A stretch of DNA of 36,971 bases from a virus. Positions within the stretch are counted from its first letter, which is position 1. The number at the start of each line of letters is the position of its first letter. The notes below the pieces were generated by a model. That model was not told the origin of the DNA, did no database searches, and saw only the letters and a program-made list of their open reading frames with translations. The position numbers and the translations under genes are program-made. Where the stretch lies: the IMG/VR virus record IMGVR_UViG_3300023176_003181, positions 1 through 36,971 of that record, one strand, 5' to 3'. Shown piece after piece: positions 8,867-33,366 of the stretch.

Positions 8867-9429
8867 TGGCAACTGAATGGTACTATAATAACATAGGTAA
8901 ACATTTAAAATATGGTTTCTTTATAGAGATAGGTGTGTTTAATGGTAAAACACAAAACACTACATTAGTATTAGAAAACTCAGGTTGGGACGGATTATTA
9001 GTCGAACCTATGCCTGAAAATATTCAAAAAATTAAAAAGAATAATAGGCGAGCAAAATTAATTGAAGGTGCTGTTTGGTCTTCTGACGGAATGGTAGAAA
9101 TGATTGATGTTGGTATTCCTGGACAAACAGGAATCAAACAAACCCATAAATCACCTGAAGAGGCAAAGCGTATTATTAAAGTTGTTAGTTATAAATTTAG
9201 TTCTTTACCTATCCCTAAACACATAGATTACCTTCAAATAGACACAGAAGGATCTGAGTTAGAAATATTAAAAACAATAGATTTAAACGAATATAATATC
9301 AACCATATTTGTATTGAAGATAATAACGGTCATTATTATGATGATCCTACATATCATAACTTTATGTCTAGTATAGGCTATAACTTAGTATATACTAAAC
9401 AGCAAGATAGAGTTTATCAAAAAGTTTAA
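8863..9429 (+). CDS. FkbM-family SAM methyltransferase
   Basis: The 188-aa product has the SAM-binding first strand and loop FIEIGVFNGKT (20-30), an acidic strand-2 end at VEPMPEN, and the family hallmark YLQIDTEGSELEIL (123-136). FkbM enzymes O-methylate sugars or polyketides; many sit in surface polysaccharide clusters. It opens the glycan cassette and is coupled to uvsY by the ATGA overlap (ATG 8866 is an alternative start). It converges with gmd, and the stop codons overlap by 4 nt. A role in methylating a sugar of the glycan made by the cassette is inferred. Confidence 0.85.
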   Translation: MMATEWYYNNIGKHLKYGFFIEIGVFNGKTQNTTLVLENSGWDGLLVEPMPENIQKIKKNNRRAKLIEGAVWSSDGMVEMIDVGIPGQTGIKQTHKSPEEAKRIIKVVSYKFSSLPIPKHIDYLQIDTEGSELEILKTIDLNEYNINHICIEDNNGHYYDDPTYHNFMSSIGYNLVYTKQQDRVYQKV

Positions 9430-10400
9430 GAATATCTTTTAATATCAGCAACAACCATCATTTCAATTAGTTGATCAAATTTTACACTAGGCTCCCAGCC
9501 TAGTTTTTCTTTAGCCTTTGTGCTGTCGCCTTTTAAATGATATAATTCTGCAGGACGCATAAATGCAGGATTTTGAACAACATGTTCTTTCCAATTATTA
9601 ATTCCAGCAGCACTAAATGCTGCTTGACATAGATCTTCAATACTCCAAGTTTCGCCTGTTGAAATTACATAATCGTCTGGTTCTTCTTCTTGCATCATCA
9701 TCCACATTGCTTGTACATAATCACCAGCAAATCCCCAATCACGACGTGGATCTAAATTTCCTAATTCAATAGTATCTTGTAAGCCCGCTTTAATTCTAGC
9801 AACGCCATCAGTAACTTTACGAGTTACAAATTCTTTTCCTCGAATGGGAGATTCGTGATTAAACAATATGCCGCTACATGCAAACATACTATAACTTTCT
9901 CTATAGTTTATAATAGCATTGTGTGCAAATACTTTTGCAAAACCGTAAGGTGATCTTGGACGGAATGCAGTAAGTTCGTTTTGTGTGTAATTCTCTTCAT
10001 AACTGTTTCCAAACATTTCACTAGTACTAGCCTGATATAATTTTGTATCTGGAGAGTGATGTCTAATAGCTTCTAACATATAAAGTGGACCTAACCCATC
10101 AACATTTGCTGTATGAATAGGCTCTTGCCAACTAAGTCCTACAAAACTCATTGCTGCTAAATTATAAACTTCGTGCGGTCTAGAAACTTTAATTGCATGA
10201 TTGACACTGCTTATGTCTGTTATATCGCCGTGTACAAATTTAATTCTACTAGTAATGCCTAAGTAGTCTGTATTTGAATAATCTTGGTTTACACGTCTAC
10301 TTGCAAACCCATAAACTTCATAATCTTTGTCTAATAGCAACTTTGCTAGGTATGCACCATCTTGTCCGGTAATACCTGTAATTAAAGCACGTTTCTTCAT
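9426..10400 (-). CDS. gmd: GDP-mannose 4,6-dehydratase
   Basis: The 324-aa protein is an extended short-chain dehydrogenase. It has the NAD(P) motif TGITGQDG (8-15), the catalytic STSE (125-128) with YGFAK (152-156), and the GMD signature FNHESPIRGKEFVTRK then LGNLDPRRDWGFAGDYV. It converts GDP-D-mannose to GDP-4-keto-6-deoxymannose, the precursor of GDP-fucose, rhamnose or perosamine. No reductase or aminotransferase for the next step is visible in the window, so the host or another phage gene must finish the pathway. CGGAG precedes ATG, and a perfect TATAAATA late promoter lies 24 nt further upstream on the minus strand. Confidence 0.95.
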   Translation of the reverse strand: MKKRALITGITGQDGAYLAKLLLDKDYEVYGFASRRVNQDYSNTDYLGITSRIKFVHGDITDISSVNHAIKVSRPHEVYNLAAMSFVGLSWQEPIHTANVDGLGPLYMLEAIRHHSPDTKLYQASTSEMFGNSYEENYTQNELTAFRPRSPYGFAKVFAHNAIINYRESYSMFACSGILFNHESPIRGKEFVTRKVTDGVARIKAGLQDTIELGNLDPRRDWGFAGDYVQAMWMMMQEEEPDDYVISTGETWSIEDLCQAAFSAAGINNWKEHVVQNPAFMRPAELYHLKGDSTKAKEKLGWEPSVKFDQLIEMMVVADIKRYS

Positions 10401-10429
10401 TGCACACTCCGTAATGTTAAGTACGTAGT

Positions 10430-10437
10430 TATTTATA
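10430..10437 (-). promoter_or_regulatory. Late promoter (perfect TATAAATA) for gmd
   Basis: The minus strand reads TATAAATA from 10437 to 10430. Predicted +1 is 10424, leaving a 24-nt leader with CGGAG before the gmd ATG at 10400. Confidence 0.7.
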
Positions 10438-10439
10438 AA

Positions 10440-10446
10440 CTAAATA
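10440..10446 (+). promoter_or_regulatory. Late-type promoter (CTAAATA) for the first glycosyltransferase
   Basis: CTAAATAT lies back to back with the gmd promoter. Predicted +1 is 10452, giving a 22-nt leader with AAGGA (10464-10468 region) before ATG 10474. The 73-bp gap is thus a divergent late promoter pair. Confidence 0.55.
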
Positions 10447-10473
10447 TACGTAGTTAATTGAATAAGGATCCCC

Positions 10474-11241
10474 ATGAGAACATATCGAGTAATAACAACT
10501 CAGCACGAACCCTATTATAACCAAATTGGTAGAGATTGTATTGCTAGTTTTTTAGAATACTGGCCTGAAAATATTACTATGGAATTATGGGCCGAAGGCT
10601 TTGAACCAGATATTAAAGATGACAGATTAATTATAAAAGACTTTGAAAAAGTTAGACCAGGTTTAAATAAATTTTTAGATTTAATATATCCTTACGTACC
10701 AAACGATCCAAACACTAAAGATATGTTTACAAAGTATAAGCCTTTTTGGCTTAAAGGACATGTAATTGCTAATGCTATGCAAGAGTGTGATGCTGATGTG
10801 TTTATATGGTTAGATAGTGATGTAATTACAAATAAAAAAATACCTTTAGATTTTTTTGAAAATCTATTGCCTGAAGATACGCTGTCTGTTGATATTCCTG
10901 CGGGAGGAAAAGTTAAAGGCAAGGAAGCCGAAACTGGCTTCTTTATGCTAAACATGAAGGATCGTAATGTTCAAACAGTAATTAAACATTACGTAAACTG
11001 CCATAACTCTTTAGAAATCTTAAAAGCAAGTAGAAGGTTAGAAACAGGAGTTTGGTGGCAAGCAGTGCATCTAGCACAAGATCAAGGTTCTAAAGTAAAA
11101 CATTTAGCAACAGCAGTAGATAGCATAGTGCCGTTTATGCATACAGAGCTAAAAGAATACTTGAGACATTGGGTCACTAAAGCCAACAAAAAGAATTATC
11201 ATCGTGGCCGACGTGACACAACAGTAGAGGAGGCAGTATGA
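10474..11241 (+). CDS. Glycosyltransferase, GT-A fold (paralogue family A, copy 1)
   Basis: The 255-aa product starts with a GT-A first strand (YRVITTQHEPYYNQIGRDC) and has a metal-binding D-x-D in FIWLDSDV (about 110-117). It then has ETGFFMLN (about 150-157) and a C-terminal HW..KANKKNYHRGR. Three other proteins here (15507, 17110 and minus-strand 17807) share the same layout: opening strand with Y and C/F-S-F, D-x-D, E-x-G-F, and a basic end. It should move a sugar from a nucleotide donor; donor and acceptor are unknown. Its stop overlaps the next ATG (11238-11241). Confidence 0.75.
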   Translation: MRTYRVITTQHEPYYNQIGRDCIASFLEYWPENITMELWAEGFEPDIKDDRLIIKDFEKVRPGLNKFLDLIYPYVPNDPNTKDMFTKYKPFWLKGHVIANAMQECDADVFIWLDSDVITNKKIPLDFFENLLPEDTLSVDIPAGGKVKGKEAETGFFMLNMKDRNVQTVIKHYVNCHNSLEILKASRRLETGVWWQAVHLAQDQGSKVKHLATAVDSIVPFMHTELKEYLRHWVTKANKKNYHRGRRDTTVEEAV

Positions 11242-12542
11242 AAACTGTTGCATTTGTTCCTGCTAAAGGTAGCAGCGAAAGAATACAAAATAAAAATTTA
11301 CAAATACTCGACGGCGAGTATTTGTTCAAACGTAAACTACGTCAACTATTAGAGTGTGAAGAAATTGACGAAGTTTGGCTAGATAGCGAAAGCGAAGAAA
11401 TACACAATCTTGCGAGCGATTTGCCTATACAGCATCATTACAGAGATCCTGAATTAGCAACTAATGCAACAGACGGACATGGAATGTTTGCAAACGAATC
11501 AAAAGTTACAGAAGCAGATATTGTTGTACAAGTGTTATGTACAGCACCTTTTATAGATAAAAATGTAATTGATCCTGCTTTAAGAAAATTAAAAGAAAGT
11601 GAAGCAACAAGTCTTGTTGCAGTTTCTGAGCAAAAATTATATTTGTGGAAAGACGGATATCCAGAATATGGTGATAGAATTCCAAACAGTATAGATTTGC
11701 CTGTGCATACAATTGAAGCTATGAGTTTTTATGCGGTAAAAACTGATAAAAAGCCCGTAGAAAAACGTTATACAAATAATGCAATTTTGTATCCAGTTAC
11801 TCCATTACAATTAGTAGATATTAACAATCAAGAAGATTTAGAGTTTGCAAAAGATATTTGTGCAGGACAACGTGCAAAGAAAGTACAGCAACTAAAAATG
11901 TTAAGTAAAACTATTAGTAGTTGTTTGCTAAGTGATATTTGTAAAGAAAACGGAATAAAACATTTCTTAAGTTCAGAGATCAAATCTATGAACAATGGTA
12001 CATTTTTAGGATACGCAAAAACTTTAAAACTAAAAGAATTACCAGAAGAAGAAAAAGATCCTTCATTGCCTCATTGGGAAGGAATATTTGACGCACTAGG
12101 AAGTTATCAATTTGTTGCACCAGGTGATGTTATTATTGTATCGACTGATGTAAAAGATAAGGCATACTTTGGAGATCTAAATGCTCACTTTGCATATCGC
12201 AGTGGTGCAGTGGGTGTAGTAGTCGACGGTCCTACTAGAGATGTAGACAGAGTAACACAAATTGGATTACCATTATTTGCACATACTAGAATGCCAGACG
12301 ATATCCGTTATGAAGGCACACTAGAAGAAATGAATATGCCTGTAGTAGTTAATGGAGTTACCGTAAGAAACAATGATATAATTTTTGGTGACCCGGACGG
12401 TGTTGTTTGTATTCCTGCAGAAAAATGGCCACTTGTGTTTGAAGAAGCAAAGAAAGCACTTAAAAAAGAAATGCTTGTTAAGTTTGAAGCAACATTTGGA
12501 TCAGATCCTTTTGACGTACTAAACAATGTTGGACTCTTTTAA
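11238..12542 (+). CDS. Fusion: CMP-sugar synthetase (NeuA-like) + RraA/HMG-aldolase-like domain
   Basis: Residues 1-205 form an acylneuraminate-type cytidylyltransferase: FVPAKGSSERIQNKNL (6-21) is the CTP-binding loop, followed by VQVLCTAPF (97-105). Residues of about 225-434 match the RraA / 4-hydroxy-4-methyl-2-oxoglutarate aldolase family: VAPGDVIIV (293-301) and the D-x20-R-D active site, met exactly by Asp313, Arg334 and Asp335 (DGPTRD). NeuA-type domains attach CMP to 2-keto-3-deoxy sugar acids such as sialic acid or Kdo. RraA-family aldolases cleave or form 4-hydroxy-2-oxo acids using Mg and pyruvate enolate. The fusion may therefore make and activate one ulosonic acid, though RraA-like domains also have non-enzymatic roles. 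AGGAGG fixes the start. Confidence 0.85.
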   Translation: MKTVAFVPAKGSSERIQNKNLQILDGEYLFKRKLRQLLECEEIDEVWLDSESEEIHNLASDLPIQHHYRDPELATNATDGHGMFANESKVTEADIVVQVLCTAPFIDKNVIDPALRKLKESEATSLVAVSEQKLYLWKDGYPEYGDRIPNSIDLPVHTIEAMSFYAVKTDKKPVEKRYTNNAILYPVTPLQLVDINNQEDLEFAKDICAGQRAKKVQQLKMLSKTISSCLLSDICKENGIKHFLSSEIKSMNNGTFLGYAKTLKLKELPEEEKDPSLPHWEGIFDALGSYQFVAPGDVIIVSTDVKDKAYFGDLNAHFAYRSGAVGVVVDGPTRDVDRVTQIGLPLFAHTRMPDDIRYEGTLEEMNMPVVVNGVTVRNNDIIFGDPDGVVCIPAEKWPLVFEEAKKALKKEMLVKFEATFGSDPFDVLNNVGLF

Positions 12543-13290
12543 CATTTACATCATAAACTATAACATGCCTGAAGCAGTGCATAAAATATACACTGCTTTA
12601 GAAAAATCTATTCCTACGAATAAAATACATGTGCTTGATAATGGATCCGATAGCAACCTAATTTACAGTAACACTTCAATTCGTATTCCTGTAAACAAAA
12701 AAGTAAGCGGAGCATATAGGCATATATTCAATAAGGCAATTGAAGAAGATGTTAAGTTTATTGTAACTATTACAACTAGTGCAATTTTATTAGATTTAAA
12801 CTATCTAAAAGGAATTCATAAAACAATAAAATCTAGAAGTAATAGCAAATGGTCTGCAATATATGGAAACATAAACAATATTGACAGTGATATGAAAGAA
12901 AGTATATCAGATCAAATTCAAGTAAAAGATTGGGTAATAAATCCCTTTCATGCACAGCCGTTGTTAACTATTTGGAATGTAGAATACCTAAAAGAAATTA
13001 AACAACTAAAACATGGCTGGTTTGATGAACACTATGTTAACGGACAAGGTGCAACAGAAGATATGCGAATGTATAATTTAACTTCTGGTTGGAACGAATG
13101 GACTACTCCATACATAACAACAGACTGGTGGCGTAACTCAACACATAGATATGGAAGAGCAGGAGTTGAAGCAAAAGAATATTATAAAAACAATAAAAGA
13201 GAATATAACCAAAGATTTAAGTCTAAGTTTAATATGACTAAGGCTCAAGTTGAATCACACTTATTGCGCAACAGTAGAAAGGAAGAGTAA
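12526..13290 (+). CDS. Glycosyltransferase, GT2-like
   Basis: The 254-aa product opens with FNIYIINYNMPEAV (5-18), then HVLDNGSDSN (35-44), the first strand and nucleotide-binding turn of GT2 enzymes. The region after residue 145 contains HGWFDEHYVNG with a probable acceptor-side acidic pair. A clear D-x-D is not obvious, so the donor-metal site is uncertain. The start overlaps the previous gene by 17 nt; a later start would remove the first beta strand. It shares no visible motif with paralogue families A or B. Confidence 0.65.
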   Translation: MLDSFNIYIINYNMPEAVHKIYTALEKSIPTNKIHVLDNGSDSNLIYSNTSIRIPVNKKVSGAYRHIFNKAIEEDVKFIVTITTSAILLDLNYLKGIHKTIKSRSNSKWSAIYGNINNIDSDMKESISDQIQVKDWVINPFHAQPLLTIWNVEYLKEIKQLKHGWFDEHYVNGQGATEDMRMYNLTSGWNEWTTPYITTDWWRNSTHRYGRAGVEAKEYYKNNKREYNQRFKSKFNMTKAQVESHLLRNSRKEE

Positions 13291-13293
13291 ATA
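13287..13293 (+). promoter_or_regulatory. Candidate late promoter (GTAAATA), predicted leaderless start
   Basis: GTAAATA includes the stop codon of the GT2-like gene. The predicted +1 is 13299, exactly the A of the next ATG. No good ribosome site lies in the 8-nt gap. Confidence 0.4.
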
Positions 13294-13298
13294 TCTAT

Positions 13299-14066
13299 AT
13301 GAAGGTCGTATTAGTTACTGGTGGGTTTGATCCACTTCATTCTGGGCATATTGCCTATTTTAAAGCAGCAAAAGAACTCGGTGATCACCTTGTAGTAGGT
13401 GTTAATAGTGATTCGTGGCTTACACGCAAAAAAGGCCGTCCGTTTATGCCTTTTGAAGAACGGGCTGCTATTATTGAAGCATTAGAATGTGTAGATGAAG
13501 TTATTGGATTTAATGACGATGACGACAGCGCCTGTGCTGCAATTTATCAAGTATTAGCAACTAAAGGTAGCCAATGGAAAGTAGTATTTGCCAACGGCGG
13601 CGACAGAACTAACAAGAATACATTAGAATATAAAATGTATAATAATCATCCCGATGTAACATTTGCATTTGGCGTAGGCGGCGAAGATAAGAAAAACAGT
13701 AGCAGCTGGATACTTAAAGAGTGGAGCCAACCCACTGTAGAACGTGCATGGGGTACATATACTATACTTGATAAAGGCGATGGCTGGCAAGTTAAACAAC
13801 TTGCATTTTATCCTAATCGAGCATTAAGTGATCAGAGGCATTTTAAACGGTCAGAACACTGGCATGTTGTTGAAGGTGCTATAAGAATGGAATTAGAGTT
13901 TGCTAACGAATATAAAACTACTAGAACATACTTAGCAGGTGAAAGTATAGACATTCCTAAGAAAACATGGCACAAAGCAACTAATGTAGGAACAGAAACA
14001 GCAAGAGTTATCGAAGTTTGGATGGGAAACGAACTTACTGAAGATGATATAGAAAGAAGAGACTAA
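13299..14066 (+). CDS. Fusion: HldE/TagD-type nucleotidyltransferase + ManC-type cupin
   Basis: Residues 1-142 are a cytidylyltransferase-like fold: GGFDPLHSGHI (8-18) with the H-x-G-H signature, GVNSDSW (34-40) and a late SSS (134-136), closest to the adenylyltransferase half of HldE and to glycerol-3-phosphate cytidylyltransferases. Residues 147-255 match the cupin of type II mannose-6-phosphate isomerases: RAWGTYTILDKGDGWQVKQL, SEHWHVVEG (185-193) and IEVWMGNELTEDDIERRD at the end. In the cupin, two of the usual clustered His before SEHW are Phe and Lys, so metal binding may be altered. The parts together suggest making a nucleotide-activated heptose or polyol and isomerising a sugar phosphate. 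The substrates are inference. Confidence 0.8.
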   Translation: MKVVLVTGGFDPLHSGHIAYFKAAKELGDHLVVGVNSDSWLTRKKGRPFMPFEERAAIIEALECVDEVIGFNDDDDSACAAIYQVLATKGSQWKVVFANGGDRTNKNTLEYKMYNNHPDVTFAFGVGGEDKKNSSSWILKEWSQPTVERAWGTYTILDKGDGWQVKQLAFYPNRALSDQRHFKRSEHWHVVEGAIRMELEFANEYKTTRTYLAGESIDIPKKTWHKATNVGTETARVIEVWMGNELTEDDIERRD

Positions 14067-14737
14067 TGAAAGTATTTGTAGGATATGACACTAGAGAAGA
14101 TATTGCTTATCAAGTGTGTAAGCATAGCATTTTAAAGCATCAACCAGAAGCAGATGTTATTCCACTAAGGCAACAAGAACTAAGAGATTCAGGTTGGTAT
14201 AAAAGACCTATAGATAAATTAGGTTCAACTGAATTTACATTTACACGATTCCTTATCCCCGAACTTACTAACTTTGAAGGTTGGGCAGTGTTTATGGATT
14301 GTGATATGATCCTTACAACAGACATTAAAGAATTATTTGATCAAGCGGACGACAAGTATGCTGTTATGTGTGTACAACATGATTACAAAGTTAAAGAAGG
14401 TTATAAAATGGATGGGCAGAAACAGACAGTCTATCCACGTAAAAATTGGTCAAGTGTTGTTCTTTGGAATTGTGGTCATCCTAGTAATAAAGTTGTTACA
14501 CAGGACTTAGTTAACCATTCTGAAATTAATGGAGCATACTTACATCGCTTTAGCTGGCTAAAAGATGAAGAAGTTGGAAAGTTAAGTCATACTTGGAATT
14601 ATCTTGTTGGTGTATACAATGATATCGAAAAACCAAATCTTATACATTATACCGAAGGCGGACCGTGGTTTGAAAATTATAGAAATTGTGAGTTTGCAGA
14701 CTTGTGGAAAGAAAATCTTTTCGAAATGATGAAATGA
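14066..14737 (+). CDS. Glycosyltransferase, GT8-like
   Basis: The 223-aa product begins MKVFVGYDTREDIAYQVC and carries STEFTFTRFLIPEL, then FMDCDMIL (about 76-83), the D-x-D of GT8 galactosyl/glucosyltransferases. It ends its core with LIHYTEGGPWF, where a conserved His-Tyr near a Gly-Gly-Pro-Trp closes the donor site, as in LgtC-like enzymes. The stop/start pair TAATG couples it to the preceding fusion gene. Its own stop overlaps the following gene in ATGA. It is paired with a GT-B-like gene, as are the GT-A genes at 15507 and 17110/17807. Confidence 0.75.
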   Translation: MKVFVGYDTREDIAYQVCKHSILKHQPEADVIPLRQQELRDSGWYKRPIDKLGSTEFTFTRFLIPELTNFEGWAVFMDCDMILTTDIKELFDQADDKYAVMCVQHDYKVKEGYKMDGQKQTVYPRKNWSSVVLWNCGHPSNKVVTQDLVNHSEINGAYLHRFSWLKDEEVGKLSHTWNYLVGVYNDIEKPNLIHYTEGGPWFENYRNCEFADLWKENLFEMMK

Positions 14738-15510
14738 TATGTTTAAGTAAAAATAAAGTAGACGAATATGTTAATATGTTTGCACAAGGTGCAAACCTTC
14801 CTATATACGACTACGACGAACCATATCCTAGTAAAGGACCATTAGTTATTAGAAGTATGGGTAAAAGAAAGTTAATACATGATTGTTGGGATAACAAAAG
14901 AACTTTCTTTTATATGGACAGCGGATACATTGGTAACTATAAATCAAAAAGCAATCCTTATGGTTGGAAGTTATGGCACCGTATTGTTAAAGATGATGTA
15001 CAGCATAACGAAATAATAAACAGATCTGATGATAGATGGAAACGCTTAAACTATCCTATCGAAAAAAGAAAACAAGGACGACATATCTTACTTGTTACTC
15101 CTAGCGAGAAACCCTGCAAGTTTTATAACATAGACAGAAATCTATGGGTAGAACAAACAATATCATTAATTAAAAAACATACTGATAGGCCTATTGTTGT
15201 AAGAGACAAAGCGCCAAGACAGCAGCGTATAACTAAAACAATTTTTGACGATCTAAAAGACTGTCATGCACTAGTGACTTATCAAAGTATTGCAGCAGTA
15301 GAAAGTGTGTTATATGGCGTCCCAGCGTTTACAGCAGCGCCTACAGCAGCTGATCCTGTATGTGATAAGGATCTTAGTCTAATTGAAAACCCTACGCTAC
15401 AAGACGAAGATAAAATATATAAATGGGCTTGTCATTTAGCATATGGGCAATTTCATAATGACGAATTAAAAAATGGTACAGCATATAGAATTTTGTTAGG
15501 AACAGTATGA
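14734..15510 (+). CDS. GT-B-like glycosyltransferase (paralogue family B, copy 1)
   Basis: The start is taken as ATG 14734, which overlaps the upstream TGA (ATGA), giving 258 aa; an earlier in-frame ATG at 14704 lies inside the GT8-like gene. Family B features are HILLVTPSEKP (about 108-118), KKHTDRPIVVR (about 145-155), then a donor-site half with ALVTYQSIAAVESVLYGVP and DLSLIENP. This resembles the capsule-synthesis (KpsC/KpsS-like) GT-B pattern, where a Ser-rich turn and G-x-P-x-F follow the HP-like motif. In this copy the usual R-A-H-P is R-D-K-A-P, so the catalytic loop differs from copies 2 and 3. Confidence 0.65.
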   Translation: MICLSKNKVDEYVNMFAQGANLPIYDYDEPYPSKGPLVIRSMGKRKLIHDCWDNKRTFFYMDSGYIGNYKSKSNPYGWKLWHRIVKDDVQHNEIINRSDDRWKRLNYPIEKRKQGRHILLVTPSEKPCKFYNIDRNLWVEQTISLIKKHTDRPIVVRDKAPRQQRITKTIFDDLKDCHALVTYQSIAAVESVLYGVPAFTAAPTAADPVCDKDLSLIENPTLQDEDKIYKWACHLAYGQFHNDELKNGTAYRILLGTV

Positions 15511-16205
15511 AATTAAAATTTGTAACAAGTGTGTCAAGAGAATATTGGTACGGTGTTGGAAAACATTGTATTGATAGTTGGGACTTGCCTGGCGAATTAG
15601 TTATCTATATAGATCAAGAAGAAGGCGAAGTAGAATGGTTTAACGATATAAACTATAAAAAATTATTACTTCATGTTCCGCCTTTACAACTTGGTGAAGA
15701 GTTTGATGTTAACACTAAAGTAAGAAAATTTTGGGGAAAGAGTTGCGCTCAAATACATGCAATTAAAAATAGAGATGCAAAAACAGACGAACGTATTATT
15801 TGGTTGGATGCAGATGTTCAACAATTAAAACCTGTTGACGAAAGTCTTTTTAATTTTAAATTTGAAGAAGCAGTAGCAATGATGAAAAGTAACAATCATT
15901 CGGCAGATTGTTACGAGACCGGATTAGTAATCTTTAATAATGACTATATTAAGTTAACTGTATGGGCTAACAAATATGCTGCATATTGGAATAATATAAC
16001 TGCTATAAAAAGTTTGCATAGACCGTATGATGCAATCGTACTAGGAAACTTTGCACGTGGTGAAAAAATTGGAATGTATAATTTGTGTAACAGTGTATGT
16101 AATAACGTTGACGCATTAAAACATACAAGATTTGATCCTTATTTTAAACATTGGATTAATAAAGCAAATAAAGAAAAATTAGTAGATCAGATTTTATCTA
16201 AATGA
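15507..16205 (+). CDS. Glycosyltransferase, GT-A fold (paralogue family A, copy 2)
   Basis: The 232-aa product shares the family A layout: opening strand KLKFVTSVSREYWYGVGKHC, D-x-D in RIIWLDADVQ (about 92-101), YETGLVIFN (about 131-139), and the end FKHWINKANKEKL, nearly the same as copy 1. It is coupled by ATGA overlaps on both sides (15507-15510 and 16202-16205). The matching ends of copies 1 and 2 suggest duplication within the phage lineage. Confidence 0.75.
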   Translation: MKLKFVTSVSREYWYGVGKHCIDSWDLPGELVIYIDQEEGEVEWFNDINYKKLLLHVPPLQLGEEFDVNTKVRKFWGKSCAQIHAIKNRDAKTDERIIWLDADVQQLKPVDESLFNFKFEEAVAMMKSNNHSADCYETGLVIFNNDYIKLTVWANKYAAYWNNITAIKSLHRPYDAIVLGNFARGEKIGMYNLCNSVCNNVDALKHTRFDPYFKHWINKANKEKLVDQILSK

Positions 16206-17113
16206 ATAGTGTAAGAATATATTATGCAGGTATTCCTGCTAAGAATACTAATAAAGAAAAAGAAATGGTGTTAAGAAATTTTCACCTAGGTATTCCTAAT
16301 GGCATCAGTAAAGAAATACGCGAGCCAAGATGGGAACCGAGTGACTTAGCAGTAATACAAGGTTGGGTACATGCAAACAGTGGCCGCACACCGCATTTAA
16401 TGTTTAGACGAGAAATTATACAACAGCAAAAGCGTATTGGTAAACATACACTTGCTATTGATAGTAACTTATTCTTATATAGAGATCCAGGCAATACAAA
16501 AACATATTTGCGTTTTAGTTTAGATGACGTTTTTCCTACAACAGGAAATTATTTTACAGACAATGTTGATCCAAGTAGATGGCAAAAACTTAAAACTACT
16601 ATCGGTTTTGATTTACAACCTTGGACTAACAAAGGTAAGCACATTCTTATATGTTTACAACGTAATGGTGGTTGGAGTATGGCCGGTTTAGATGTAATGG
16701 AATGGTGCAACTTAACTATACAGCGTATTAAACAACATACAGATAGACCTATAGTTGTTAGGGCACATCCTGGAGATAAACGAGCACAACAATATTTAAA
16801 GTTAACTCATCCTAATGTAACAATTAGTAATAAATCATCTATACTCGAAGACTTTCATAAATGTTGGTCTGTAATAACATACAATTCAAGTCCAGGAGTA
16901 GCAGCAGCAATAGAAGGTATACCTGTATTTGTTACTGATCCTACTCCACAAATAAGTCAAGCATATGATGTATGTAATACTGATTTAAAAGATATTGAAA
17001 ACCCTAAACGTCCTGAAAGACAACAATGGATTGAAAAACTTGCAATGAGTCATTTTAGTTTTAGTGACTTACATACTGGTGTTGCGTGGAATATCATTAA
17101 GGATTACATATGA
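16202..17113 (+). CDS. GT-B-like glycosyltransferase (paralogue family B, copy 2)
   Basis: At 303 aa this is the longest family B member. It carries HILICLQRNGGWSM (about 146-159), KQHTDRPIVVRAHPGD (about 178-193), SVITYNSSPGVAAAIEGIP (about 223-241) and DLKDIENP. The R-x-H-P and Ser-Ser-Pro-Gly turn match bacterial capsule and Kdo-type GT-B enzymes, where they contact the nucleotide-sugar phosphates. The N-terminal 130 residues hold an acceptor-like domain with W-x-H and R-rich segments. It is coupled to its neighbours by ATGA overlaps at both ends. Confidence 0.7.
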   Translation: MNSVRIYYAGIPAKNTNKEKEMVLRNFHLGIPNGISKEIREPRWEPSDLAVIQGWVHANSGRTPHLMFRREIIQQQKRIGKHTLAIDSNLFLYRDPGNTKTYLRFSLDDVFPTTGNYFTDNVDPSRWQKLKTTIGFDLQPWTNKGKHILICLQRNGGWSMAGLDVMEWCNLTIQRIKQHTDRPIVVRAHPGDKRAQQYLKLTHPNVTISNKSSILEDFHKCWSVITYNSSPGVAAAIEGIPVFVTDPTPQISQAYDVCNTDLKDIENPKRPERQQWIEKLAMSHFSFSDLHTGVAWNIIKDYI

Positions 17114-17835
17114 AAAAGTATGCTGCAATAACTAGTATGAATAAAGAATACTATGATAGATGTGGGAAAGTTATGTTAGAAACTTTCAAAGATAAATGGG
17201 GACACTTAATGAAGTTGTACGTTTATAATGAAGACAACTTCGATTTAGGTGATAAGTTTTTTAAACCTATGGGTTGGGATTTAGGTAATGAGTATGAAGC
17301 ATTTCAAGAACGTCATAAAAACAATAGGGTAAAAACATTTTCTAAAAAAGGATTCAGTATTATACATGCTATGGATAACATAGACTGTGATAGATTAATA
17401 TGGATAGATGCTGATGTAATTTTTAAAAGTCCTATACCTCCAAACATATTAGATGACATAACTAACGACAAAATACTAAGCACACACTTTATGGTTTGGC
17501 ATCACATAGAGGGTATTGATTATTATAGTTGTGAAACAGGATTCTTTGTACTAAACAAACGTCATAAAGGATTTGAAGTATTTAAAAATACATATAAAGA
17601 CATTTATTATAATGATAAAACAGACGGGTTACGTAGATTTTATGATGGCGAAATATATGGAAAAACTGTAAGAACTTGTTCTGGTTTTAGAATGATGAAT
17701 TTATCTGTAAGAGATAAAATTAAGACTCCGATTAAAAAAAGTATACTAGAGCCTTATTTAGAACACCATAAAGCAGGAATGAAAGAACGTGTTAAAAAGG
17801 CAAAAACTATCGCCAGTACTCCTCTTTTCGAGTAA
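17110..17835 (+). CDS. Glycosyltransferase, GT-A fold (paralogue family A, copy 3)
   Basis: The 241-aa product opens KKYAAITSMNKEYYDRCGK, has RLIWIDADVIF (about 95-105, D-x-D) and YSCETGFFVLNKRHKG (about 139-154), and ends in a Lys-rich tail. It is closest in motif wording to copy 1 (ETGFF). It is the last plus-strand gene of the ATGA-coupled run that begins at 14066. Its 3' end overlaps the 3' end of the minus-strand copy 4 by 29 nt, so the two transcripts converge with no terminator between them. Confidence 0.75.
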   Translation: MKKYAAITSMNKEYYDRCGKVMLETFKDKWGHLMKLYVYNEDNFDLGDKFFKPMGWDLGNEYEAFQERHKNNRVKTFSKKGFSIIHAMDNIDCDRLIWIDADVIFKSPIPPNILDDITNDKILSTHFMVWHHIEGIDYYSCETGFFVLNKRHKGFEVFKNTYKDIYYNDKTDGLRRFYDGEIYGKTVRTCSGFRMMNLSVRDKIKTPIKKSILEPYLEHHKAGMKERVKKAKTIASTPLFE

Positions 17836-18652
17836 CCATTATATCTGAGCGTTTAGACTTACCAGCAGTTTTACGATCACCTTTCATATGGTCCATCCAC
17901 TTACCTAGTACAGTATTAATTAAAGGATGTCCACCGCCTCCAGTACGTGCCTCTCGTAAATACATTTCAGCACTATAATCATGTGCTAAAGGAAATTCTC
18001 TTTTATATTTGTTTAGTATGTGTCCAAATACAAAACTATCGTGCCATTCTTCTAGTTTAAATATTCCGTTGTCAGCATCTTCGTAATAGCGTTCAAATTC
18101 TTTCATAAACTCATGACATACAGGATGATTTTTATTCATTCCGTAAAATCCGCACTCAGGCCAAGTTTGACTTCCTTTACCTCTACCTACATATGTAAGC
18201 CACGAGTTCTCAGGCAATAAATTTTTAAAGTCTTTATGTTTCCAAGGACTATGAATAAACGTATCTGCATCCATCCATACAATCCAACCACTGCTTTTTT
18301 CCCAAGCGTCAAATACAGCATAAACTTTGTTAGCAAAACGCACAGCGTCCCATTTAAATGCTTTATTCCAATCTCTTGGTCTACGTGCTTTAATATCATC
18401 TGGCGGAATGCCATTTGCTTTAGGAACATCTTTCCAACGTTCTTTAAACGCATTTAATTTTGGTAATGCTTCTTTTGCATTTAATACTGTAATGTTTTCA
18501 CACATAGGATCTACTATAGGAGAACAATCTTCTGCATATACTAATAACTTAACTTTTGGATCTACACGTTCTGCAAAACTATCTAAAAATCTTTGCCCAT
18601 AAAGCCGTAATCCTGGCTTATGAAATGTTGTAACCACAGTTATGTTATTCAT
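17807..18652 (-). CDS. Glycosyltransferase, GT-A fold (paralogue family A, copy 4)
   Basis: The 281-aa product begins NNITVVTTFHKPGLRLYGQRF. It has GWIVWMDADTFIH (D-x-D, about 122-134), WPECGFYGMNKNHP (about 163-176, in place of ETGFF) and EEWHDSFVF, and ends basic. It is about 40 residues longer than the other copies because of an insert before the D-x-D. AAGGA lies 9 nt before the ATG, and a TTAAATA late-type promoter is 33 nt upstream on the minus strand. Its orientation splits it from copy 3, to which it is convergent. Confidence 0.75.
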   Translation of the reverse strand: MNNITVVTTFHKPGLRLYGQRFLDSFAERVDPKVKLLVYAEDCSPIVDPMCENITVLNAKEALPKLNAFKERWKDVPKANGIPPDDIKARRPRDWNKAFKWDAVRFANKVYAVFDAWEKSSGWIVWMDADTFIHSPWKHKDFKNLLPENSWLTYVGRGKGSQTWPECGFYGMNKNHPVCHEFMKEFERYYEDADNGIFKLEEWHDSFVFGHILNKYKREFPLAHDYSAEMYLREARTGGGGHPLINTVLGKWMDHMKGDRKTAGKSKRSDIMVTRKEEYWR

Positions 18653-29268: not shown

Positions 29269-29637
29269 TTACTTAGGTTTCTTAACAAGTTGTACGCTTT
29301 TACGCTTTACTCTTTTAATAGTCAAGTTGTTTAAGTTTACACACGGTCCTATAGTTACTTTAACATCTTTGCTGTTCATAGTTTGTATAGCATATCTAAA
29401 ATGCTCCATCTCTTTACGCAGAAAGATGTTAATAGGAATCATTCGATTTGATTCCCACCACCAAATATCTCCAAGCTCAAGCAGCCGTCTTTTTTCTTTT
29501 TCAGTACTTAAATCTGTATACACATACATACTGGTTACATACTGATCTTGATTGATGACAATGCCGACGTACTCGTTGCCGCCATAATGGACAACGCTAA
29601 TATAAGGGAAGTTAGTTTCGATATCTTTTAGTAACAT
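29269..29637 (-). CDS. Phage protein of unknown function (122 aa)
   Basis: The start is ATG 29637; a longer frame would cover the late promoter and start of the divergent gene. The product has a beta-rich first half (NFPYISVVHYGGNEYVGIVI) and a striking LELGDIWWWESNRMIPINIF (about 56-75), then VNLNNLTIKRVKRKSVQLV and a basic tail. The triple Trp followed by E-S-N-R looks like a fixed motif, but I know no function. It is divergent from the 260-aa virion-like gene and lies 10 nt from the next minus gene. Confidence 0.7.
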   Translation of the reverse strand: MLLKDIETNFPYISVVHYGGNEYVGIVINQDQYVTSMYVYTDLSTEKEKRRLLELGDIWWWESNRMIPINIFLRKEMEHFRYAIQTMNSKDVKVTIGPCVNLNNLTIKRVKRKSVQLVKKPK

Positions 29638-29645
29638 GTTTTCCG

Positions 29646-29652
29646 ATAAATA
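29646..29652 (+). promoter_or_regulatory. Candidate late promoter (ATAAATA), predicted leaderless start
   Basis: GATAAATAC lies in the 19-nt gap between divergent genes. The predicted +1 is 29658, one base from ATG 29657. No Shine-Dalgarno is visible. Confidence 0.5.
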
Positions 29653-29656
29653 CTTT

Positions 29657-30439
29657 ATGCAAACTTTAAGATATTTAGTATCAAATAGAACAACCATCCT
29701 AGCAAATGAAGCAGGATTCGTCACGGAGTATAGACCAGTGTATAATAGACATTTAAACATATATAAAGGCATTGACAATGTGCTTGAATTTAAACTGTTA
29801 AACGCAGATCAAAAACCATTAGATGTAGATAGATATACACCCAAGTTTCAAGCGTTTGATGAAAGTGGCAATCTTATTATTGAACACGATGGTGTAAACT
29901 TGCAAGAAGGTGATAGTACTGCATATACTAAAAAAGGTTTGTTCTCGGTTACTGTTACGGAGAACGATTTGTTAAATGTGAAAGATCAATATCTTTCTTA
30001 TAACATACACTTAGTTGACTATGATGAAACTAAAGTTCTTACGTATGCTAACGAATGGTTTGGCAATGCTGGTGTTATTAAAGTAAACGGCTCAGCATTC
30101 CCTGGACCAAGTGCTACATACTCTATAGATACATTCTTACAAGATAATAGCGTTTGGTATAGCGAATCTATAGATGCACAACCCGGTATTAATGGCAATG
30201 AAGCACTACACACTGCGGCAGTATACACAGATGGTTATGCCGGTGATGTAGTAGTACAAGCAACACTAGAGAATCAAGTTACAGATTTTACTAACTGGGC
30301 AGACGTTGCTACAAAAACACTTAGCGGTAGTGAAACAGAACCTACACCAATTAACTTTAATGGTGTGTTTAGTTTTTTACGTATTAAAGCAACAGCAAAT
30401 CCAGCAAACACAATATCCAAAATACTTGTAAGAAACTAG
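29657..30439 (+). CDS. Probable virion structural protein (260 aa)
   Basis: ATG 29657 is favoured over the upstream in-frame ATG 29636 because the late promoter lies between them. The product opens MQTLRYLVSNRTTILANEAG and then VYNRHLNIYKGIDNVLEFKLLNADQKPLDV, a beta-rich domain like those of phage neck, tail or baseplate decoration proteins. The last 100 residues hold a second beta domain (VVVQATLENQV, FSFLRIKAT). There is no enzyme motif. Late-type control and all-beta content support a structural role, but the exact place in the virion is unknown. Its stop abuts the receptor promoter. Confidence 0.6.
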   Translation: MQTLRYLVSNRTTILANEAGFVTEYRPVYNRHLNIYKGIDNVLEFKLLNADQKPLDVDRYTPKFQAFDESGNLIIEHDGVNLQEGDSTAYTKKGLFSVTVTENDLLNVKDQYLSYNIHLVDYDETKVLTYANEWFGNAGVIKVNGSAFPGPSATYSIDTFLQDNSVWYSESIDAQPGINGNEALHTAAVYTDGYAGDVVVQATLENQVTDFTNWADVATKTLSGSETEPTPINFNGVFSFLRIKATANPANTISKILVRN

Positions 30440-30468
30440 TTGACAATTTAATACTAAAGTGCTATAAT
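30440..30468 (+). promoter_or_regulatory. Perfect sigma70 promoter for the TonB-dependent receptor, predicted leaderless
   Basis: TTGACA (30440-30445), 17 bp, TATAAT (30463-30468). Predicted +1 is 30475, the A of the receptor ATG. There is no leader, so no riboswitch or ribosome site is possible upstream. Confidence 0.85.
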
Positions 30469-30474
30469 AGCACT

Positions 30475-32208
30475 ATGTTTAAAAAATACATCTCTATAGC
30501 AGCGGTTGCTTTCGCTGCTTTTTTTACGACTCCGGCTGAAGCAGAACTAGTAATTTACATATACGCAGAACGAACACCAACAATAGCAGCAGGCAGTACA
30601 TACTCGTATGATATAGTTAACTCTGAAGAAGTACAAGATGCAGCAAGTGTTGATATAGTATCAAGTGGTCCTAAAGGACAAATGAGCTCTTTATATATTA
30701 GAGGAGCGGATAGCGATCAAAGTCTTATTACCTTAAATGGCATTAGCATAAAAGATCATAGTAGTCCAACCGGTACAGATGATTTAGGACAACACAACTT
30801 TATAGGAATTGACACAGTTGAAATATACAAAGGTCCTATGAGTTCATTGTATGGTCCTAATGCTGCCGGTGGAGTTGTTAACTTAGTTTCTGATACATCA
30901 ACAAAGTCGTACATTGGCGGATATTTGGGTTCACACAACCTGCAAGAAAAGCAAGTACAACTATCAGGAGATGTAGAGAATGTATGGTATACTTTTACTT
31001 ACAAAGATGAAAGTACAGATAGTATTAGTGTCGTGCCAAATGGCAGTGAAACAGATCCTTTTGAATCACAAAATTATAATTTAAATTTATTATACAACGG
31101 TGAAAGTGGTAATATAAGATTTAATCATATTAAAGAAACAAATTTTAGTAATTTAGATACAACAGTTGATACATCAGACTATACCGGTAAATGGATATGG
31201 ACTAATAATCAAGTAGACTTTAATAATAAAGTTACAAGACTAGCATTTAACAATTCAACACACGAAAGAACCTATACCAAAGACAATCAGCTAGAAGGAC
31301 AATACAACAGTACTGCTAATACAGTATATGCATCACACCTACTAAAGTTTGATAAAACAGATATACTTATTGGCGGAGAGTACGAACATGTAAATGCAAA
31401 CTTCTTAACTAATATTAGAGGCGCACTCCCTTACACAAGTACTGTTGATAAAACTAGAGATACTAAAGGTGTATTTGTTAAAACAAATATTCTATTAGAT
31501 GATTATGTATTAGCTTCGGGTATACGCTACGATACTATAGACGGGTTTGGCGAAAAAGTTACAGGAAGACTTGGTGTGAACAAAGATAACATAAGAGCAA
31601 GTGTAGCACTAGGATATAGAGTACCAACACTGTACGAAATGTACGGCAAAGACAATTATGGATTTACAGGTAATCCAAATCTAAAAGAAGAAGACACAAT
31701 TAGTTACGAAGTAGGGTATTCAAATAAGTTTTCAGATACTGCACTTTTTATTACACGAGAATCTAACGCAATCGTCTACGACGGAACATATGTAAATGAT
31801 AGTGCTGCTTCTTATACCAAAGGTATAGAAAACAAACTGTTCTTTGAAATAGAAGGTATTAATATTACTAACAACTTTGCACTAATTAGTGCAAAGAAAT
31901 CAAACGGTGAAGATAAACTTCGCAGACCTAACATCACTAACAATACAAAGATTTATAAAATTATTAACAATATACTGTATTCCTTTGATATAAACTACTA
32001 TGGAAAACACAAGGATTTAAACAGTAAGACATGGGAAACAATAACTGTAGATCCTATTGTAACCTATGATGCAGAAATAAAATACGAAAAAAATAATCTA
32101 GAACTGTTTACAGGACTATATAATATAACTAATAAGGAATACGAAAGACCTAACGGTTATAGCCAATTAGGGCGTAATTGGAAAGCAGGGTTTAGAGTAT
32201 ATTTTTAA
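30475..32208 (+). CDS. TonB-dependent outer-membrane receptor, BtuB-like
   Basis: The 577-aa product has a signal peptide (FKKYISIAAVAFAAFF, then TTPAEA, cut near residue 23) and a plug domain (about 25-150) with SSLYIRGADSDQSLITLNG, VEIYKGPMSSLYGPNAAGG and VVNLVSD, the BtuB/TonB plug signature. A beta-barrel of alternating strands follows, ending in ...RNWKAGFRVYF; a terminal aromatic is the outer-membrane insertion signal. A TonB box is weak (ELVIYIYAER after the signal). BtuB (614 aa) imports cobalamin with TonB energy; related receptors take siderophores. The ligand cannot be read from sequence. The strong promoter suggests host-polymerase expression early in infection. Confidence 0.9.
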   Translation: MFKKYISIAAVAFAAFFTTPAEAELVIYIYAERTPTIAAGSTYSYDIVNSEEVQDAASVDIVSSGPKGQMSSLYIRGADSDQSLITLNGISIKDHSSPTGTDDLGQHNFIGIDTVEIYKGPMSSLYGPNAAGGVVNLVSDTSTKSYIGGYLGSHNLQEKQVQLSGDVENVWYTFTYKDESTDSISVVPNGSETDPFESQNYNLNLLYNGESGNIRFNHIKETNFSNLDTTVDTSDYTGKWIWTNNQVDFNNKVTRLAFNNSTHERTYTKDNQLEGQYNSTANTVYASHLLKFDKTDILIGGEYEHVNANFLTNIRGALPYTSTVDKTRDTKGVFVKTNILLDDYVLASGIRYDTIDGFGEKVTGRLGVNKDNIRASVALGYRVPTLYEMYGKDNYGFTGNPNLKEEDTISYEVGYSNKFSDTALFITRESNAIVYDGTYVNDSAASYTKGIENKLFFEIEGINITNNFALISAKKSNGEDKLRRPNITNNTKIYKIINNILYSFDINYYGKHKDLNSKTWETITVDPIVTYDAEIKYEKNNLELFTGLYNITNKEYERPNGYSQLGRNWKAGFRVYF

Positions 32209-32210
32209 GT

Positions 32211-32336
32211 ATGAAACAAATATTAAAACACTCTATGTTTTGGCCAAGTGTGCTAATAGCAAGTCCAGTGCTATACTATCTATTGTACAAAATTGGACTA
32301 GAACTTTGGTGCATAGCATACGGATTAATCTATTAA
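32211..32336 (+). CDS. Small putative membrane protein (41 aa)
   Basis: This short frame fills the gap between the receptor and the primase promoter. It starts 2 nt after the receptor stop and reads MKQILKHSMFWPSVLIASPV, then a hydrophobic Leu/Tyr run to ...AYGLIY. One membrane segment of about 20 residues is likely, with a basic N terminus. There is no clear ribosome site, so it may be translated by re-initiation from the receptor message. Confidence 0.45.
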   Translation: MKQILKHSMFWPSVLIASPVLYYLLYKIGLELWCIAYGLIY

Positions 32337-32341
32337 TCTTC

Positions 32342-32370
32342 TTGACTTTTAACCTACACGAGCATATAAT
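32342..32370 (+). promoter_or_regulatory. Sigma70 promoter for primase, predicted leaderless
   Basis: TTGACT (32342-32347), 17 bp, TATAAT (32365-32370). Predicted +1 is 32377, the A of the primase ATG. Confidence 0.75.
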
Positions 32371-32376
32371 AAGAGT

Positions 32377-33366
32377 ATGAGTGTAGTAAATGAAACAGTT
32401 CTGACATACTTGCCGCCTAAGCGTAAAACAACGCCTAGTGGCTGGCTATCATTTAATGCACCGTGTTGCCATCACAATGGACACACGGCTGACACTCGCG
32501 GACGTGGTGGCTTAATAAGCAACCCCGATGGAGGCGTTAGTTATCATTGCTTTAACTGCGGCTTCAAAGCATCCTGGCAACCAGGCAGAAACTTCAGCCA
32601 CAAATTGCGCAAGCTCCTGCAATGGATGGGGGCACCTGACGATATAATCAACAAGGTCGCACTTGAGGTTATGCGAGAGAACGAAGGCGTTGAAGCACAA
32701 ACACGCATAGCGGAATTGCCTACGTTTAACACTGTACCGTTGCCAGATGATGCTATTCCTATTTCAAGAGCCGTTGAAGGAAATGAAATAAACGAACACT
32801 TGTATAAGGTACTAGAGTATATGGCTAGTCGTAACCTAAATTTAGATGATACAGACTATCATTGGAGTCCTAGTTTAGGGTATCGTGATAGATTGATAGT
32901 GCCATTCTACTTTGAAGGTAGGGTAGTGGGTTGGACTGGACGTTCAGTAGTACCCGATAAGAAACCCAAGTACCTAACAGAGGTACAACCTGGATACGTC
33001 TATGGTTTAGATGAACAGGGCCATAACAAAGTGTTTGCTATAGTATGCGAGGGTCAGCTTGATGCTATACACGTTGAAGGTTGTGCATTGGGAGGGTCGG
33101 AAATTTCAGACCAACAGGCTATGTTGCTTAATAGATTACAAAAGCAGATCATAGTAGTACCTGACAGAGATAGTGCAGGGTCTAAACTAGTAGAACGAGC
33201 AATTGAACTAGGATGGAGTGTAAGTATGCCTGATTGGTCACCAGAACTAAATGATATAGGAGACGCTGTGCAACGCTATGGTAGATTATACACACTGCAT
33301 AGTATAGCATCACAGGCAAATGACAGTGCGCTCAAGATTAGACTAACAGCAAAGAAATGGTTTTAA
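32377..33366 (+). CDS. 61: DNA primase gp61 (DnaG/TOPRIM type)
   Basis: The 329-aa product has an N-terminal zinc site (APCCHHNGH, about 28-36, with CFNC at 58-61), a basic RNA-polymerase-like part with RDRLIVPFYFEGRVVGWTGR (170-189), and a TOPRIM domain: VCEGQLDAI (223-231, Glu225) and VVPDRDSAG (260-268, Asp263, Asp265). gp61 lays primers on the lagging strand while bound to the gp41 helicase, whose gene follows directly. The start fits the promoter +1 exactly and has no Shine-Dalgarno. Confidence 0.93.
   Translation: MSVVNETVLTYLPPKRKTTPSGWLSFNAPCCHHNGHTADTRGRGGLISNPDGGVSYHCFNCGFKASWQPGRNFSHKLRKLLQWMGAPDDIINKVALEVMRENEGVEAQTRIAELPTFNTVPLPDDAIPISRAVEGNEINEHLYKVLEYMASRNLNLDDTDYHWSPSLGYRDRLIVPFYFEGRVVGWTGRSVVPDKKPKYLTEVQPGYVYGLDEQGHNKVFAIVCEGQLDAIHVEGCALGGSEISDQQAMLLNRLQKQIIVVPDRDSAGSKLVERAIELGWSVSMPDWSPELNDIGDAVQRYGRLYTLHSIASQANDSALKIRLTAKKWF

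Follow-up and report, generated by a model that had tools for sequence, protein, structure and literature searches.

A BtuB-like receptor gene in T4-like jumbo phages and its possible part in cobalamin import

Why would a phage carry the gene for an outer-membrane receptor? The question is posed by a virus record of 36,971 bases (the window, meaning the whole stretch analysed), in which a BtuB-like TonB-dependent receptor gene (30475-32208, +) stands among phage genes. The window has a T4-superfamily terminase, closest to those of jumbo phages such as PA5oct, and further encodes UvsX, UvsY, a ssDNA-binding protein, a primase and a helicase. It is a fragment of a T4-like jumbo phage. Amid the replication genes, at 9426-18652, there is also a cluster of nucleotide-sugar dehydratase, cytidylyltransferase, cupin isomerase and glycosyltransferase-like genes, together with several large open reading frames that have no Pfam match.

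The receptor gene and its insertion site

The reading frame is intact from ATG to TAA and specifies 577 amino acids. Matches to the Pfam plug (PF07715, residues 53-134, 30631-30876, +; E 1.7e-14, 54.7 bits against a cut-off of 23.9) and barrel (PF00593, residues 146-577, 30910-32205, +; E 7e-22, 79.3 bits against 27) both exceed the curated cut-offs, and by these predicted domains the product is a member of the TonB-dependent receptor superfamily. Inspection of the translation suggests a signal peptide, MFKKYISIAAVAFAAFFTTPAEA (residues 1-23, 30475-30543, +), followed by a TonB-box-like segment, ELVIYIYAERTP (residues 24-35, 30544-30579, +); on the same basis, most of 31 phage receptors show the pattern L-x-I-x-I-Y-A-x-R-T directly after their signal peptide. 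The last residue is Phe, as it is in 26 of 31 phage relatives. When sequences of solved structures were searched, the top match was BtuB (1nqf, E 1.5e-16). The AlphaFold2 model of the receptor (pLDDT 82.8, pTM 0.84) comprises a plug and 22 barrel strands (residues 146-576, strands counted by hand), and the 12 highest-placed Foldseek matches to it are all E. coli BtuB (best E 9e-33, TM 0.84). The matches include BtuB in complex with colicin E3, and further down the ranking come Cir, FepA and receptors for haem, PQQ and copper. Pfam, the PDB sequence match and Foldseek thus bear out a sequence-only reading of this DNA, which had named a BtuB-like TonB-dependent receptor; the signal peptide and terminal Phe that it had noted are visible in the translation. 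That reading had also named a barrel too degenerate to insert as a ground for rejection; no degeneration is visible in the model. The resemblance has a limit, in that the receptor scores 142 bits against the NCBIfam B12-receptor equivalog TIGR01779, below its cut-off of 599.7. By these scores it is BtuB-like, yet no BtuB equivalog. PHROGs lists the receptor-like group phrog_5687 under unknown function.

The gene lies between a virion structural gene (phrog_14467; 29636-30439, +) and a DNA primase gene with its own promoter (phrog_47; 32342-33366, +). Among 79 relatives holding both flanking genes, the two are directly adjacent in 58, separated by other inserts in 17 and separated by the receptor in four. 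Homologues in the same place, which the sequence-only reading had proposed as a check, exist in a small minority of these relatives, the slot being empty or otherwise occupied in the rest. The gene order on both sides of the receptor is preserved in two sister contigs, where the receptor is 63% identical and the proteins that flank it mostly 70-90%. Of 15 receptor-bearing contigs searched, 7 (sizes up to 204 kb) also hold the T4 major capsid gene gp23; both genes occur on a 115-kb relative, for example. Values of dN/dS for the receptor are 0.08-0.30, and it is under purifying selection. The receptor is an optional accessory (auxiliary) insert between core genes, with its own promoter and under selection. 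At the left of this region, a minus-strand gene (29269-29778, -) overlaps the start of the virion gene; nearly all of about 80 relatives keep it, at 56-90% identity, and both strands therefore seem to be coding.

Transcription signals and the adjoining microprotein

The receptor promoter (30440-30468, +) begins one base past the stop of the preceding virion gene and consists of TTGACA (30440-30445), a 17-nt spacer and TATAAT (30463-30468). Six nucleotides separate the -10 box from the ATG, a spacing from which we infer a leaderless mRNA. Both the TTGACA-17-TATAAT promoter and a leaderless start had been proposed previously: the former is confirmed in the sequence and the latter is what the spacing predicts. 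Exact TTGAC-N(17-19)-TATAAT sites number three in the window against 0.2 expected, and the same promoter geometry is kept ahead of 18 of 18 receptor genes of the window's lineage, which is more than chance. The primase has a promoter of the same type, TTGACT-N17-TATAAT at 32342-32370 with the ATG at 32377, and this type (TTGAC, then a TATAAT-type box only a few bases short of the ATG) stands before the primase in 69 of 79 relatives. Each of the 18 lineage receptor genes has its own copy of the primase-type promoter. The sequence-only reading took the early-type promoter as a sign that the product acts on the host cell more than in the virion, and this argument gains support here, the promoter type being that of the neighbouring primase.

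A perfect inverted repeat, AGTGCTAT-A-ATAGCACT (30458-30474, 8-bp arms), lies over the -10 box and abuts the ATG. It is a possible operator, and it is perfect in one further relative (L026) and imperfect in most others, for which reason it was dropped as evidence. No RNA hairpin above chance level was found at the receptor start.

Two bases past the receptor stop begins a gene for a 41-aa hydrophobic product, MKQILKHSMFWPSVLIASPVLYYLLYKIGLELWCIAYGLIY (32211-32336, +). Its start is coupled to the receptor stop, with a gap of -1 to +2, in 16 of 16 receptor cassettes of the lineage, and its pN is 0.14-0.31 against a pS of 0.36-0.78. Sequence features predict a membrane microprotein coupled to the receptor gene. 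Phage membrane microproteins ending in LELWCIAYGLIY form a family found in 47 IMG/VR stretches (32211-32336 in the window; L372-L413). Members adjoin several unrelated types of TonB-dependent receptor (L382, L389, L409) and, on inspection, also precede IscU-like (L373), LpxH-like (L386), lipoprotein-like (L374) and helicase-like (L381) genes.

The phage receptor clade and its links to cobalamin

Two scans of IMG/VR for relatives of the receptor returned 16 loci and then at least 77 loci on viral contigs, the latter a lower bound from the best 80 of 82 relative-encoding stretches. The sequence-only reading had called such receptors rare in phage genomes. This holds for cultured phages, where tblastn against a cultured-phage collection gave only eight weak matches, none of them convincingly a phage gene, and fails for phages known from metagenomes. 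The two cultured-collection records that were opened resemble host DNA, and the apparent cultured homologues were set aside: AFYI01000005.1 and CAKLQH020000002.1, with bacterial btuB, look like host DNA. One btuB-holding record of the collection also carries 16S rRNA and a cobalamin riboswitch.

The phage receptor clade spans several phage lineages. One is pelagimyophage-like, with a baseplate gene gp6 61% identical to gp6 of Pelagibacter phage Mosig, and has its receptor beyond gp25, in the gp25-gp5 region; in some other lineages the receptor is inside the virion gene block. A phylogenetic tree places all 31 sampled phage receptors on one side of a branch and 36 cellular receptors on the other (SH-aLRT 100), the cellular sampling being Bacteroidota and two gammaproteobacterial receptors only. 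A deep split divides the phage clade from these sampled cellular B12 receptors. Within it, the window lineage is sister (support 99) to a lineage (L036-L044) that bears DUF6580, a family discussed below. Across 84,980 species genomes, a single close relative was present among the matches listed, on an 8.5-kb contig (PACV01000025.1, L019) of the Flavobacteriaceae MAG NAT163. This contig has gene families and a gene order in common with three viral contigs (L071, L075, L076) and is probably, from its gene content, a virus in a MAG bin. NAT163 holds one more receptor-DUF6580 pair, on a separate contig (L130). In a further set of phage loci (L056-L062, L066, L074, L085, L087), a gene for a TctA-type membrane protein (PF01970, E 7e-58 in L058) directly follows the receptor.

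Most lineages other than that of the window have a gene for a DUF6580 membrane protein next to the receptor gene. Of 78 phage receptor loci, 45 hold the pair, with DUF6580 upstream or downstream according to lineage. No DUF6580 gene was found in the window or in the other contigs searched in its lineage, including the 115-kb contig, and plasmids and cultured phages gave no match. DUF6580 is a small helical membrane protein whose profile match to the B12 carrier CbrT is not significant (E 0.63) and whose best fold match is the ECF S-component TmRibU (TM 0.54, in a fold search that gave no significant match). From its gene neighbourhood and this weak fold similarity, it is probably an inner-membrane B12 carrier.

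We ran the phage receptor profile over 297 Bacteroidota genomes and scanned the best 20 cellular receptors with Rfam, leaving out the receptor on the probable viral contig. A cobalamin riboswitch lies directly upstream of 20 of these 20 nearest receptors, all from Bacteroidota. Among cellular loci, likewise sampled from Bacteroidota, the 20 whose DUF6580 most resembles the phage ones include 7 with cobalamin riboswitches: the order riboswitch-receptor-DUF6580 is seen in five cellular loci (L157, L160, L170, L172, L173), separate riboswitches precede receptor and DUF6580 in L163, one precedes DUF6580 itself in L168, and L137 is a further cellular DUF6580 locus with a riboswitch. Many cellular DUF6580 genes stand in other contexts. 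The window and five phage loci gave no cobalamin riboswitch.

Possible users of cobalamin are found on the phage contigs themselves. Proteins with a B12-binding domain are encoded on 11 of 24 receptor-bearing phage contigs (8 of the 11 exceed the curated cut-off) versus 2 of 21 related contigs that lack the receptor; the excess has a Fisher p of 0.009, or 0.08 at the strict cut-off, with kinship uncorrected. By Pfam, most of those examined combine a B12-binding domain with a radical-SAM domain. In the group of L019 and L061, a radical-SAM gene lies directly next to the receptor in tail-to-tail orientation; its B12-binding match is weak in the former and below threshold in the latter. Two receptor-less jumbo relatives carry B12-binding proteins. 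In the window lineage none was found on the contigs searched, the 115-kb contig included, none of these contigs being known to be complete. A class II (B12-dependent) ribonucleotide reductase was rejected as a motive for B12 uptake: the reductases on four phage contigs are class I on inspection, since a small-subunit gene lies beside each.

Proposed function, alternatives and known systems

Our preferred reading, with a probability of about two in three, is that the receptor gene serves a large marine phage as an auxiliary uptake gene, expressed early and supplying the infected cell with cobalamin or another corrinoid. Early in infection, host RNA polymerase would transcribe the gene from its primase-type promoter; the product would be exported to the outer membrane of the infected Gram-negative host, insert there and import cobalamin or another corrinoid, powered by the host TonB complex. 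The gain would be more B12 for B12-dependent reactions in phage replication, including those of host enzymes, and in several related phages their own B12-binding radical-SAM enzymes may also use the imported vitamin. DUF6580 would pair with the receptor as the probable inner-membrane carrier in most other lineages of the clade, and in the window phage its part might be taken by an inner-membrane transporter of the host or by an unlinked gene. Because the window lineage has neither DUF6580 nor a B12-binding enzyme on the contigs searched, the ligand there is proposed from kinship and fold. Membrane insertion, ligand, energy coupling, timing of expression and benefit are thus all put forward conditionally. 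Of the three roles offered by the sequence-only reading, nutrient uptake is the best supported, its ligand now narrowed to cobalamin or a corrinoid by the riboswitches and DUF6580.

The second of those roles, masking of the host receptor, is unlikely in our view and remains a live rival. BtuB-type receptors serve phages and colicins as entry points, and a phage-encoded version might block or titrate phages or bacteriocins that use the host's own. Superinfection exclusion of this kind would suit a lineage that has the receptor without an inner-membrane partner; the primase-type promoter fits an early protective role, and surface-altering glycosyltransferase genes are common in related phages (PMC7029224). 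A decoy, however, needs neither a carrier nor a B12 enzyme, whereas most related lineages have DUF6580 and many have B12-binding enzymes, and the TonB-box-like segment has been retained.

It is also improbable that the receptor takes up another ligand, such as an iron chelate, haem, another metal complex or another vitamin, with the same logic of benefit. Fold does not tell ligand, as the lower-placed matches to receptors for other substrates illustrate, and the phage clade is deeply split from the sampled cellular B12 receptors; against this, BtuB takes all of the top 12 fold matches, every one of the 20 nearest cellular receptors is behind a cobalamin riboswitch, and no iron-uptake partner adjoins the receptor in the loci examined. 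Least credible by far is that the gene is host contamination, a captured non-functional gene or a virion component (among them the metal role in the virion suggested earlier, for which there is no support): cultured-collection matches do resemble host DNA, in records that seem mislabelled or contaminated, and other lineages do have the receptor inside the virion gene block. Against these versions stand the conserved phage flanks, the empty site in relatives, the T4 capsid gene on the same contigs, dN/dS well under 1, the signal peptide and the dedicated promoter; contamination and decay are already contradicted.

Cobalamin import, if that is the function, may be part of a larger arrangement, in which the marine phage clade encodes a full B12 route of receptor, DUF6580 carrier and radical-SAM users and the window lineage keeps a reduced form, with the 41-aa microprotein in place of the carrier gene of its sister lineage. 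We offer this extension tentatively, leaning slightly to the doubtful side. Seawater holds extremely little cobalamin, many marine microbes are limited by its supply, and phage genes that raise the supply of phosphate or carbon are known. If true, cofactor supply would join the resources that phages boost, through a vitamin route spanning both membranes, and infection would be linked to B12 cycling, with phages taking control of marine B12 supply. DUF6580, a family without known function, could then be tested as a B12 carrier, and a function is suggested for the receptor-like group in PHROGs.

TonB-dependent receptors borne by phages are already known, whereas for a phage B12 import cassette we found no report; a literature search of incomplete coverage returned none on a phage-encoded BtuB, a viral B12 receptor or such a cassette. 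The nearest functional model is E. coli BtuB, the outer-membrane cobalamin transporter, with which the phage receptor has in common a plug and 22-stranded barrel (TM 0.84), its best PDB sequence match and near relatives in Bacteroidota behind cobalamin riboswitches. Unlike BtuB, it is less than 25% identical in sequence and below the equivalog cut-off, phage-encoded, and expressed from a primase-type promoter without a riboswitch. The inner-membrane B12 carriers BtuM (PMC6072759) and ECF-CbrT (PMC5997447) offer a parallel for DUF6580, a small helical membrane protein with a weak CbrT profile match and S-component fold similarity (TM 0.54), and the carrier role of BtuM was likewise predicted from co-localisation with btuB; the similarity of DUF6580 to these carriers is, however, not significant, and the protein is missing from the window lineage.

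Among phages, the marine megaphage Mar_Mega_1 encodes a SusC-like TonB-dependent receptor, for which its authors propose raised uptake in infection (PMC9723777). It too is a very large marine phage with such a receptor, but its annotation as SusC implies carbohydrate uptake. The pelagiphage Skadi, another marine phage, has a TonB-dependent receptor protein in which its authors see a clue to the adsorption receptor (PMC10504331); unlike the phages described here it is a small podophage, and no Skadi record was among our tblastn matches. A survey of pelagimyophages leaves TonB unmentioned (PMC7029224). The nutrient genes of pelagimyophages, finally, include a putative phosphate ABC transporter gene that Mosig carries in the same gp25-gp5 region as the pelagimyophage-like receptor; that transporter would serve a different nutrient and a different membrane.
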